A stretch of DNA of 64,000 nt, from assembly GCA_028376765.1 (NCBI GenBank), contig JAONBD010000003.1:1-64000 (forward strand). The letters are read 5' to 3'. The position numbers and the translations under genes were made by a program. Below the pieces are notes generated by a model. The model saw nothing but the letters and a program-made list of their open reading frames with translations. It was not told where the DNA came from and searched no databases. Below are positions 14,573 to 19,145 of the stretch, in pieces; within the stretch, counting starts at the first letter, position 1, and every line of letters starts with the position of its first letter. This DNA comes from Candidatus Kapaibacterium sp. Lineage in GTDB: Bacteria > Bacteroidota > Ignavibacteria > Kapaibacteriales > UBA2268.

Positions 14573-15190
14573 TTAATTAGATATATTGGTAAAGTCAAAT
14601 ATCAAATGTTTTAAGATTCCTATTTCAATATGTTCAGATTCAAAATAATCTTTATGTAGATGATTTTTTTTAGAAATCAAAGTTTCGGTACTTCTATTAT
14701 CTTTTTTTATTAGAAGGGAGTTAATTCCTTGAATAGTCTTGTTTAAATCTCCTTCTAATAAATACCCAACTAAACTTCCATTTTCGTATTTTTTAGTAGT
14801 AAAGTTATTAATACCTGTAGCAATGTATCTCCGTTTGAGTGCAGAACTTTTTTCTTTTAAGTTTTTTGCTTCAAAAAAATACTTCAATTCTAGTTTTGAA
14901 ATTATACTAGACATTTTCAAATCTACACGTGGTAGTTTATCTGCAAAACCTTTCTTTTTCTCTATATCTTCTGATAAATGTTCTTCTCTGGTTGCAAATA
15001 TGCTAAACTCAAGTCTTTTAGGGTTACTGTCTAATTTTTCAAATAATACTTGTGAGATATCATTCTCGTCCATATTTAATTTTATAATTTTCTCATTTAT
15101 TGAAGAATGATAAGCTTCAGCCATTAAAATAAAACATTTATCCTCAAATGCCTTTTTGAATTTTTCGTGAATATTCGTATTTAATGCCAT
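14573..15190 (-). CDS. Putative PD-(D/E)XK-type nuclease partner of the adjacent DNA methylase
   Basis: PRVDLKM...LKYFFEAKNLKEK gives D-x(n)-ExK spacing; starts 2 nt after the methylase stop (same strand). Confidence 0.4.
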   Translation of the reverse strand: MALNTNIHEKFKKAFEDKCFILMAEAYHSSINEKIIKLNMDENDISQVLFEKLDSNPKRLEFSIFATREEHLSEDIEKKKGFADKLPRVDLKMSSIISKLELKYFFEAKNLKEKSSALKRRYIATGINNFTTKKYENGSLVGYLLEGDLNKTIQGINSLLIKKDNRSTETLISKKNHLHKDYFESEHIEIGILKHLIFDFTNISN

Positions 15191-15192
15191 AT

Positions 15193-18100
15193 TTAATTCT
15201 CGTTTAAAATTTCAAGAATTAACTCAGAAGCATATTCTAATGCCATTGATTGCGACCAGAATCTTCTTTGATTTGGTCTAATAATATAAATATTATTCCC
15301 TGATTTATAATTAAGTTTTTTTCTAAAATAGATATTGGTGGCTTTTTCTTCCCATAAGTGTTTATCGAGTTTTTTTAATTCATCATCAATAAAATCTTCT
15401 GATTGAAAAGTTTCGTTTTTCTTTTCATTAAAAGAAATTTTAATCATCATTAAAGGACTAAATCTATTGATAGAATTAAAAACTGTAGCATTTGCAAATA
15501 AATCTTGTCCGTCAAGAAAATTATTTAATTCATTAGAAATTAATGTGCTAAAAATTTTTACTTGCTCTTGAAGTGCGGGGAATAATGCTTTTGATTTTTC
15601 TTGATTATGAAATAAATCAACCGAAATTTGGATTGTATCTGAAATAGAAATTAAATCATTTGATGAAAGATAATATATATTTTTAATTTCTGAATTCCAT
15701 TTATTTGTTTCAAAAGTTATTTCATCTTGACTAAATAAAGTATCGTTTTCCTCAAAATTTAATTTCGAGAATTTCTGTTCTTTAATTTTTTTTAAATCTA
15801 ATTCTTGATAAGGGAAATTTAGGTATTCAGTTAAAACAATTCTATCTCTTTCTAGACCCCAAGAAGATGAAGTAAGGAAAAAGAAGTAGGTTGCTAAATG
15901 TGAGTTAAACGTAATTACGATTGATTTTAATTTATCAGCATCTTTAGAAGAAAAACCATATACAGCTTTATTATAAAAGATATTATAGTCAAAGTAACTC
16001 GATAGGATATTCTTATTTGTAATACCTTCTTTAATTACAGCGAGAGGCTGTTCGAATAATTTTGTGTTATTTTTCCTGAACTCTCCGCTTATATCTTGGC
16101 TCTTATTCTTATTTGTGTAATATTTATTAATTTTAGATGTACCAATGTGCTTACCGTCAACTAAAATTTTGTTTTCTTCTTTTTCTTTTGGGTGTAAACC
16201 AGAACCATACTCAATATTGTTTTTACTCAAATAGCTTTTAAAGCATTCATTTTGTTTATTTAGTTTTTGGATTAATTCCCAATCATTCATTCCGCCCCAC
16301 ATTGCAACCTTCCAGATTTTGGTGTCAGGTTTTTGGCTTTCCTCTCTTGGTAAATATTTTAAATCTGTGGAATCTATAATTAAACCTTCAATTATATTTG
16401 ATTTAATATAAGTTTTAGGTGAATAATATGTGATTGTATTTGAGATTGTCTTTGGTTGCTCTTTTTGATAAAATACAATGCTTATAGGACCAGTTGCATC
16501 TCCAAATAATTGACCTCCAAAATTTTTCTTTGCATTACGAAGTATCGAAAAATTATATATTTTTTCTACATAGTTTTCGTTAAATAACCATTCTCTAAAA
16601 TTCTGATAAGTACCTCCTGTATTAGTTAAAACCTTGGTATTAAATATTAGAGCTATTTCTCCATTGGGTGCAAACTTTGTGGATTTATGTAAAAATGGTA
16701 AAACCATTTGTTTAGCAAAATCAAATTGTTTGTTATAATTTTTTACAGATTCAAGTAAACCAGTATTACCAAACGGTGGGTTTCCGACTACAAGATTAAA
16801 TTCTATATTTTCTACTTCTTTATTTGTCTCAATGGTATCTCTGCAAAATAAATTTGCTCCTTGTTTTTTTAAAGTTTTATCATTTGGGTTGTTGATTAGG
16901 TTGGGTAAGCTATGATTTTTATTTTGCCAAATATTTTTAGGGTTCAGATTATCAACTAAAGCTAAGTATAAACTAAAAGCAGCAACTTTAATTGCTTGTG
17001 GATGTAATTCAATTCCAAAAATATTATCTGTAAGTAGTTTTTTTAATTTATTAAAGTCGGTTAGTTTTTCATTATGGGAATTCTCATAACGCTTTACTAA
17101 TCGTTTAAAGCATTCTACTAAAAAAATTCCAGAACCACAGGATGGGTCTAAAATCTTAATATTATAGTTTGTTTCACTATTATTAACAGGTAATTTTTCA
17201 TTTAAAATAAATTCAACCAAAGAAGGTGGTGTGTAATATGTTCCTGTTTTTTTCTTTAATTCAGGGTCAGTTTTAAATAAAAAGTTTTCATAGATTTCAC
17301 TTAACAATTCTATTTGTATAATGCTAAAATCAAATAGTCTCCAATCCTCAAATAAGTTTATTTGTGATGTGTTTTCATTACCACTAATAAAACATTTTTT
17401 AATTAATTGAAGTTGATTGGTAGATATGTTTTCTCCATCTTCTAAAGTGAACACGTTACCATTGAAATGTTCCTCTAATTTATCGAATAAATCATAAGTT
17501 GATTTTACATCATTTAGAATGTCAAAGTAAGATTTTGCTCCTTTTCTTATTTTAGAATAAAATATCTTATCTGTGGCTCCTCTATCTTGCAGATATAAAA
17601 GAAACAAAGAACGAAGAATGATCTTGTTGATAAAATTAATGTCAAGACCTTGATTTTGAAGTTGATTAGCTGTGTTAACTAAACTATCTACTAAATACTT
17701 GTCTACTCTACGTTGTAAATTTATTTTATCTCTGATAAATTGAGCTTCTTCCAAAGTCCAGATAATTCCCGTATCAATGGCAATAGTTGAAAAAAGTCGA
17801 TTAAGCTCTTGAATTTGTTCTTTGTCAGAATAAGTATAAGATTTTATTTCAATTTTTTGCAGTTCAATATTATAATCAAAATCATCTTTAGTGATGATAA
17901 TAGGTTTTTCAGAACAGTTATAAATACGAATTTCTGTTTCAGAATAAACGTATAGAAATAGTACTTTTTTGAAGTTCCAAGCTTTTTTGTGAGTGTTTGC
18001 AATTTCTTTTAATGAACCTGTATCGAATGAGTTTATTTTTTTTAAAAATATAGCAGGAAAGCTATTGTCGTTTTCATCGGTATTAAAATAAACTGCATCT

Positions 18101-18222
18101 ATGCCAAACTCTTTTGCTTGGTTCAAGACAATAGATTTACTTTCGGACAGCTTTTTGCTTTTCGAAGTAGTAGAAATGGCTTTGTTTAAACCAATTAAAT
18201 CTATTGTTTTTTGTCCGTTCAT
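15193..18222 (-). CDS. Eco57I-like N6-adenine DNA methyltransferase / restriction-modification protein
   Basis: KKKTGTYYTPPSLVEFIL (motif X region), ILDPSCGSGIFLVECF (motif I), LVVGNPPFGN (motif IV NPPF), C-terminal TRD-like half. Confidence 0.85.
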   Translation of the reverse strand: MNGQKTIDLIGLNKAISTTSKSKKLSESKSIVLNQAKEFGIDAVYFNTDENDNSFPAIFLKKINSFDTGSLKEIANTHKKAWNFKKVLFLYVYSETEIRIYNCSEKPIIITKDDFDYNIELQKIEIKSYTYSDKEQIQELNRLFSTIAIDTGIIWTLEEAQFIRDKINLQRRVDKYLVDSLVNTANQLQNQGLDINFINKIILRSLFLLYLQDRGATDKIFYSKIRKGAKSYFDILNDVKSTYDLFDKLEEHFNGNVFTLEDGENISTNQLQLIKKCFISGNENTSQINLFEDWRLFDFSIIQIELLSEIYENFLFKTDPELKKKTGTYYTPPSLVEFILNEKLPVNNSETNYNIKILDPSCGSGIFLVECFKRLVKRYENSHNEKLTDFNKLKKLLTDNIFGIELHPQAIKVAAFSLYLALVDNLNPKNIWQNKNHSLPNLINNPNDKTLKKQGANLFCRDTIETNKEVENIEFNLVVGNPPFGNTGLLESVKNYNKQFDFAKQMVLPFLHKSTKFAPNGEIALIFNTKVLTNTGGTYQNFREWLFNENYVEKIYNFSILRNAKKNFGGQLFGDATGPISIVFYQKEQPKTISNTITYYSPKTYIKSNIIEGLIIDSTDLKYLPREESQKPDTKIWKVAMWGGMNDWELIQKLNKQNECFKSYLSKNNIEYGSGLHPKEKEENKILVDGKHIGTSKINKYYTNKNKSQDISGEFRKNNTKLFEQPLAVIKEGITNKNILSSYFDYNIFYNKAVYGFSSKDADKLKSIVITFNSHLATYFFFLTSSSWGLERDRIVLTEYLNFPYQELDLKKIKEQKFSKLNFEENDTLFSQDEITFETNKWNSEIKNIYYLSSNDLISISDTIQISVDLFHNQEKSKALFPALQEQVKIFSTLISNELNNFLDGQDLFANATVFNSINRFSPLMMIKISFNEKKNETFQSEDFIDDELKKLDKHLWEEKATNIYFRKKLNYKSGNNIYIIRPNQRRFWSQSMALEYASELILEILNEN

Positions 18223-18277: not shown

Positions 18278-18310
18278 CAAATTTATTCTTTTTGAAAAAA
18301 TAAAGTCAAA
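18278..18310 (-). promoter_or_regulatory. Candidate promoter of the methylase/nuclease operon (TTTG-N21-TAAATTTG)
   Basis: caaattta at 18278-18285 and caaa at 18307-18310 on + strand, 21 nt apart, upstream of start at 18222. Confidence 0.55.
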
Positions 18311-18396
18311 TTACTTTTGCAGATAGTCAACAATGGATAAGCTACAATTTTTTTAGCATTAAAATATATTAGTGGCAAAACCGAAAATGCTAAGAT

Positions 18397-18412
18397 AAAC
18401 GACTGGTCGTTT
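18397..18412. promoter_or_regulatory. 16-bp palindrome AAACGAC-TG-GTCGTTT, TetR-family-operator-like
   Basis: Perfect 7-bp arms with 2-nt centre. Confidence 0.4.
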
Positions 18413-18686
18413 GAATCTCAAACATTACATATATTTACATTGCTTATATAAATTATATAGTGTTTTTAGTAAGTGCATATATATATAAATACTTTAACTA
18501 TTGAATACTGCATTTGTAACTATACGCACAAGCTAATTTAATGAAAATTTAAACAGCACTCGCTATATTTTATAAACCATTTACAAAATATGGATAAACC
18601 ATTTTCTTGTATTTTGTTTTTGGATTGGTAACTTTCGTCCAAAAAAGAATCAACGAATACAGCGGTAGAAACATTCTGCAAGGTGT

Positions 18687-18790
18687 GCTCGTCATTAAGA
18701 CTGGAGCGAAGCGGAAGGATGAATCCAGTGAAAACATTGACCATACTGGATTCTTCAATCGGACTGAAGTCCTCTTTCTGAATGACGAGC
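18687..18790. repeat. 104-bp imperfect palindromic interspersed element
   Basis: GCTCGTCATT (18687-18696) / AATGACGAGC (18781-18790) termini and inner GAATCCAGT (18721-18729) / ACTGGATTC (18745-18753); contains GGAGCGAAGCGGAAGGATGAATCCAGT. Confidence 0.75.
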
Positions 18791-18807
18791 CAGTGAAAAA
18801 GTGGAAG

Positions 18808-18862
18808 TGGTGACACTTTAAAAAACGAAAAAGTGTTACCAGGTGTTACCAGATGTAACCAA
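18808..18862. repeat. Hairpin plus 10-bp iteron-like TGTTACCA repeats, cluster 1
   Basis: TGGTGACACTTT/AAAGTGTTACCA arms (11/12) then GTGTTACCAG GTGTTACCAG ATGTAACCAA. Confidence 0.65.
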
Positions 18863-19032
18863 CATAATTTAAAATTGCTTTAAACAAATACCTTTATTTT
18901 TTTGTTTCTGAAACTTACTTTGTAGAAAACACACTTACTTATCAGTACAACCTTAATAAAATTTCATATATTAATTTAGAAAAAATGAAACAAAGCGAGG
19001 TTTCAACTTAGTAGGGTTAGCCCCCACCTAAA

Positions 19033-19054
19033 TCCTCCCCCTAAAGGGTGAGGA
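19033..19054. repeat. C-rich hairpin element TCCTCCCCCTAAAGGGTGAGGA
   Basis: Complementary arms with one mismatch, within ...TAGCCCCCACCTAAATCCTCCCCCTAAAGGGTGAGGACTT. Confidence 0.6.
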
Positions 19055-19092
19055 CTTGAAAAAATCGAAAAAGTGTTACCAACTGTTACCAG
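19054..19092. repeat. Iteron-like TGTTACCA repeats, cluster 2 (direct repeat of cluster 1, 240 bp away)
   Basis: ACTTGAAAAAATCGAAAAAGTGTTACCA matches 18815-18841; followed by CTGTTACCAG. Confidence 0.65.
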
Positions 19093-19145
19093 TTCTTTGA
19101 AAAAGTTGACGAAAAATATACCTGAACTTGATATTTAAATTAGAT

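Follow-up and report, generated by a model that had tools for sequence, protein, structure and literature searches.

A recurring gene pair of a Type IIG-like methylase and a small putative PD-(D/E)XK nuclease as a candidate two-subunit restriction-modification system

What distinguishes the restriction types is the set of activities combined in one chain. In the Type IIP arrangement, separate genes for the restriction enzyme and the methylase are usual and about 200 aa is a normal enzyme size, while the Res subunit of Type III systems carries a helicase; solitary methylases with regulatory roles exist as well. An E...D...ExK set of residues is the signature of PD-(D/E)XK nucleases. The definition of Type IIG enzymes, in the section of PMC4081073 that treats them, is that a single chain both cleaves DNA and carries out gamma-class methylation, the specificity module being either C-terminal or carried by a separate subunit. 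BtsI and BsrDI possess a small non-specific nuclease subunit, and their large subunit is also a nuclease (section on these enzymes in PMC4081073; PMC2909958). As for the origin of Type IIG enzymes, it has been proposed that an HsdR-type nuclease domain was fused to an M-S chain (PMC6158711). The locus described here appears to lay out the same parts unfused, and it bears on that fusion proposal.

The locus lies in a stretch of 64,000 nt from Candidatus Kapaibacterium sp. (GCA_028376765.1, contig JAONBD010000003.1, positions 1 to 64,000, forward strand), referred to below as the window, and consists of two genes on the minus strand. A preliminary description of this DNA had pointed to a 1009-aa reading frame with GTYYTP, DPSCGSG and NPPF motifs, followed 2 nt later by a 205-aa frame with a D and an ExK. 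We find the large frame at 15193-18222 (-), with GTYYTP at residues 327-332, and the small frame downstream of it at 14573-15190 (-), the two being separated by nucleotides 15191-15192; the D of the small frame (D90) lies in PRVDLKM and its ExK (E107, K109) in FFEAKN. The genes on either side of the pair encode a pirin and a MatE transporter, and the pair is present as a single copy in the window genome, which is 76% complete. GC content is about 25-29% over the pair versus 33-39% over the adjoining pirin and MatE genes, which is only weak evidence of foreign origin because other stretches nearby are also AT-rich. Upstream of the methylase gene, window positions 18300-19140 form a long non-coding stretch with repeated GTTACCAG-type units (18820-18862 and 19060-19092).

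The large chain is a gamma-class N6-adenine DNA methyltransferase, by its motif I and NPPF and by matches above the curated Pfam cut-offs (Eco57I, 6.8e-21; N6_Mtase, 7.5e-21), and it ends in a C-terminal target-recognition region, as expected of an M+S subunit. The AdoMet-binding motif I, DPSCGSG (residues 359-365; 17128-17148, -), keeps D359, G363, S364 and G365 unchanged in every one of 21 large chains, and the catalytic motif IV, NPPF (residues 481-484; 16771-16782, -), has N481 and P483 invariant in all 21 and P482 in 20. The nearest solved relatives by sequence are adenine methyltransferases, aligned over residues 306-558. Membership of BREX was rejected, since PglX models score 37-54 bits against cut-offs of 400-900, and with pirin and MatE genes as its neighbors the pair was placed in neither BREX (PglX) nor DISARM (DrmMI).

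At the position where Type IIG enzymes have their nuclease, the large chain has an alpha/beta domain (residues 28-130; 17833-18141, -). PADLOC matches the chain to REase_MTase_IIG (PDLC03603, 5.5e-55) and files its family as a single-chain "Type IIG restriction enzyme-methyltransferase" with no partner recorded, one relative (L043) matching this model over its full length with 1065 bits. The large chain could accordingly be a complete single-chain Type IIG enzyme with a cryptic N-terminal nuclease, and the small protein an accessory such as an end-degrading nuclease or a regulator. The N-terminal domain also resembles, weakly, HSDR_N_2, the nuclease domain of Type I HsdR, consistent with descent from a nuclease domain: in a profile-profile comparison with a profile made from the collected sequences of that family it scores 16.9, the maximum of 400 shuffles being 14.9. 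We nevertheless regard the single-chain explanation as unlikely, because no acidic/Lys triad is conserved in this domain over 21 members, whose only common residues there are H78, W82 and N83, and because large chains are almost never without the small partner, whose catalytic-type residues do not vary. The suggestion in the preliminary description that the large N-terminus might be a second nuclease is thus not supported, as no conserved D/ExK set was found in the domain among the 21 large chains. The other invariant residues of these chains are methylase motifs and scattered structural ones, although a nuclease of another kind could lie elsewhere in the chain. On account of the weak HSDR_N_2 similarity, the domain may be an eroded nuclease domain, a reading that is only suggestive because comparison with the canonical Type IIG nuclease domain, through a profile from one sequence, gave scores of 16.3 and 15.6 that are not significant (the latter was exceeded by 1 of 300 shuffles). 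Foldseek with the large-chain model listed MmeI and Holliday-junction and tRNA-splicing endonucleases, with E above 0.4 and hence not significant. A relative that has no small partner (L056) carries a standard nuclease at its N-terminus (GGRVDLAF...FFLEAK), with Pfam HSDR_N matches. The contrast is between the canonical Type IIG chain, which carries a D...EAK itself and is not accompanied by a small protein, and the paired large chains, which have no conserved triad.

The neighborhood of the pair was surveyed, as the preliminary description had proposed, in a search for relatives with one genome per species. All 14 closest relatives belong to Flavobacteriaceae; their small proteins are 53-58% identical to that of the window, and the same methylase lies upstream of the small gene in every one, at a gap of 2-3 nt. 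A methylase profile recovered 15 further, distant proteins from 396 sampled Bacteroidota genomes, and gene order is kept here too, 13 of the 15 having an ORF of 205-250 aa directly downstream, usually overlapping or abutting. Two of the 15 have no such partner: L052 stands at a contig end, and L056 is itself a different protein, of 862 aa. Conversely, the small-family profile found 17 loci in the same 396 genomes, comprising 15 intact pairs and 2 decayed remnants, and no intact orphan. One remnant is an N-terminally truncated frame beside a transposase gene; the other is frame-shifted, with a transposon-type gene inserted between it and a methylase fragment. These decayed copies of the module lie near 6064-6414 of L084 and near 87-4306 of L085. 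On plasmids, a search with an alphaproteobacterial member gave 20 records that match the small protein, and every one of them is among the methylase matches too; their hosts are alphaproteobacterial and the small protein is annotated "hypothetical protein". Most scans of viral contigs gave no match, and one gave two relatives. Homologs of the small frame that routinely occur away from methylases would, according to the preliminary description, have spoken against its reading; neither the Bacteroidota genomes nor the plasmid records contained an intact example. The large and small genes are a recurring two-gene module, present also in distant bacteria. Distances among the small proteins are moreover correlated with distances among the methylase cores (r = 0.86, reached in 0 of 5000 permutations), which suggests co-evolution of the two.

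The small family has no model in Pfam, NCBIfam or PADLOC, and neither the window protein nor ten of its relatives gave a meaningful match there; a sequence search of the PDB likewise returned no significant match for the small protein. The first weak single-sequence matches (TonB/DNA polymerase I and the like) were set aside as chance; L006, which was among them, is a real distant partner. In the family alignment, partners range down to 16-24% identity with the window protein, and six residues are invariant over 24 small proteins: E42, D90, E107, K109, Y122 and H195. The D and ExK singled out in the preliminary description are therefore not chance occurrences, and the conserved (E)...D...ExK by which PD-(D/E)XK nucleases are recognized is found in 24 of 24 divergent members. 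E42 (codon 15065-15067, -), the Glu upstream of the D...ExK core, is presumably the helix-1 acid of PD-(D/E)XK folds; D90 (14921-14923, -) is the putative metal-binding Asp, and E107-A108-K109 (14864-14872, -) form the ExK motif. Compared with HSDR_N_2, the small-family profile scores 31.2, while 200 column shuffles reach at most 17.3, and the alignment puts D90 and E107-x-K109 on the catalytic-core Asp and the ExK of that family, in a match that spans only 32 columns around the motif. As yardsticks, the nuclease domain of the canonical single-chain Type IIG protein scores 31.5 against the HSDR_N_2 profile, and the known relatives HSDR_N_2 and Mrr_cat score 19.2 against each other. With the Mrr_cat profile, the small family scored no better than shuffles did. 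Together, the motif and the HSDR_N_2 comparison lend support to the earlier assignment of the small frame, which we treat as a putative PD-(D/E)XK nuclease.

Structure prediction contributed less, since the shallow alignments gave low-quality AlphaFold models. That of the small protein, from 17 sequences, has a pLDDT of 57.8, and Foldseek found nothing significant with it, so that the fold rests on the motif and profile evidence. This leaves some room for the idea that the small protein is a DNA-binding or regulatory subunit that keeps the PD-(D/E)XK fold without being a nuclease, and that the module serves epigenetic methylation, for which the solitary regulatory methylases offer a precedent. 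We consider it very unlikely, as even members that have diverged very far all keep the complete E...D...ExK set, which would be unnecessary for a structural role. The small gene is under purifying selection among close relatives, with a median dN/dS of 0.097 (range 0.063-0.180, 59 comparisons).

The 14 close relatives indicate how specificity is divided between the two chains. Most pairs of their methylases are 86-100% identical over the first 640 and the last 60 residues, and the region between these, corresponding to about residues 635-941 of the window protein (15400-16320, -), where identity drops between classes, falls into three classes that are about 27-35% identical to each other. Between L015 and L017 the recognition regions are 27% identical, with sharp break-points, and the small proteins 97% (7 substitutions in 206 residues). 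L025 has the recognition class of L017, yet its small protein is closest to those of L024 and L023, which belong to another class, and class 2 recognition regions occur with two different small-protein lineages. The small protein, on these patterns, does not track the recognition region, and this region, a candidate for the one exchangeable specificity module that both activities share in Type IIG enzymes, is exchanged between constant flanks and beside a constant small protein. A nuclease that read the site could not stay so constant, whereas one that followed the large chain could; therefore specificity probably resides in the large chain, and it is probably not the small protein that reads the target. 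The same patterns bear on a classical Type II pair, in which the small protein would read the methylase's site itself as an independent sequence-specific restriction enzyme. The separate genes and the size of the small protein would suit such a pair, but it is hard to reconcile with a recognition region that is fully exchanged from one close relative to another beside an almost unchanged small protein, or with one recognition class shared by two small-protein lineages, and we give this explanation very little credence. If the small protein instead follows the large chain, cutting would be expected to follow the exchanged recognition region.

We thus consider it likely that the module is a two-subunit restriction-modification system, made of a methylase-plus-specificity chain and a small PD-(D/E)XK nuclease subunit. 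The preliminary description had raised the possibility that cleavage was split off to the small partner, and this is favored by the pairing, by the invariant nuclease-type residues and by the large N-terminus without a triad. In the mechanism we propose, the exchangeable C-terminal region of the large chain would recognize a DNA sequence, in which an adenine would be methylated by the gamma-type N6 methylase core of that chain. The small chain would be a PD-(D/E)XK nuclease that has hardly any specificity itself, or none; docked on one of the constant parts of the large chain, it would cut DNA near unmethylated target sites. Methylation would then mark self DNA, and incoming unmethylated DNA of phages or plasmids would be cut. 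The direct basis is the gene pairing, the nuclease-type residues, the exchange of recognition regions beside a constant small protein, and purifying selection; from these we infer complex formation, cleavage, the target and cut site, and a role in defense.

The pair shows signs of mobility. The Aureibaculum copy (L002/L020, genome G107) shares only the phylum with the window genome, while the one pair from the window's own class (L050, genome G140) is far more divergent, with a small protein just 22% identical to the window's, which suggests that the pair has moved by horizontal transfer. Of the 14 flavobacterial copies, 9 have conserved mobilization-type genes in a block ahead of the pair, and 10 have conserved tra-type genes on its other side; by gene content, these pairs are cargo of an integrative conjugative element. 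Further copies are on conjugative or mobilizable plasmids, and the neighbors of some copies are AbiH or SIR2 genes or a caspase/Schlafen cluster. A setting among mobile and defense genes fits, and does not prove, a role in defense or in maintenance of the element. The same-genus relatives of the window genome that were examined for an empty site have no close copy of the flanking pirin gene.

Several neighbors deserve mention in their own right. Caspase-domain, HATPase-domain and Schlafen/AlbA proteins stand in a row to the right of the pair in L012 (8741-13890), probably a second defense cluster. Two distant copies have another probable methylase or Type IIG-like gene immediately upstream (L047, 190-3384; L053, 67-1869), suggesting defense-island settings. 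On alphaproteobacterial plasmids a conserved 61-64-aa protein (LNFKV..DFK..FKGYAV..G..M..LL.EGFEL), possibly a regulator, precedes the pair (L060, 3628-3813; L061, 3659-3853; L062, 3696-3890), and its L061 copy has no Pfam match. After the pair in three flavobacterial mobile elements comes a gene for a 349-aa protein (L021, 8672-9721; also in L014 and L018), which has no Pfam match and whose C-terminal D-VK...YEVKS stretch resembles another PD-(D/E)XK nuclease.

In the openly accessible full-text literature we found no description of the pair, and the sections of PMC4081073 on Types IIB, IIG, IIH and IIT do not include an M+S chain with a small separate R subunit that has no motor. We advance, tentatively and at somewhat less than even odds, the broader proposal that these pairs are a widespread, unrecognized class of restriction systems, in which methylase and specificity would share one chain, the nuclease would be an HsdR-like subunit of its own that has no helicase, and subunits divided as in Types I and III would together perform the task of a Type IIG enzyme. 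If this is true, the entries of the large-chain family now filed as single-chain Type IIG enzymes are half-systems. Since PADLOC calls the large chain a complete enzyme, cloning the large gene alone, or predicting from methylomes, would yield a methylase without restriction. As the target seems not to matter to the small subunit, natural exchange of recognition regions would also mean that one nuclease subunit serves many specificities.

How, then, does the module compare with the systems already described? With the BtsI, BsrDI and BspD6I enzymes (Type IIT) it would share a small catalytic subunit without specificity and a large recognizing subunit (PMC2909958; section on these enzymes in PMC4081073); their large subunit, however, is a nuclease and their methylases are separate, whereas the large subunit here is itself the methylase. 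Type IIB BcgI (RM + S) is likewise a two-subunit methylase/nuclease enzyme with shared specificity, as described in the corresponding section of PMC4081073, but it is the specificity subunit that is separate in BcgI and the nuclease in the window module. The likeness to the N-terminal nuclease of Type I HsdR (HSDR_N_2) is one of profile, centered on D...ExK and limited to 32 columns, and the module has neither a motor domain nor separate HsdS and HsdM. Type III systems (Mod + Res) resemble it in combining methylase and specificity in one chain and keeping the cutting subunit separate. The small chain, however, at 205 aa and with no Pfam family above cut-off, lacks the superfamily 2 helicase motor, which places the pair outside Type III, and ATP-driven translocation is not expected because no helicase is present. 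With Type IIG enzymes of the Eco57I/MmeI/BpuSI kind the module shares a gamma-class N6 methylase core, a C-terminal specificity region and a large chain of about 1000 aa, and in Type IIG, according to the section of PMC4081073 devoted to it, cutting and methylation can both rely on one specificity module. The window module differs in that the large N-terminus has no conserved nuclease residues and the putative nuclease is encoded by a separate gene, so that the two domains do not share the single polypeptide by which Type IIG is delimited. In its working the module would resemble a Type IIG enzyme with the nuclease domain encoded by a gene of its own, or a Type III system in which the subunit that cuts is free of a helicase.
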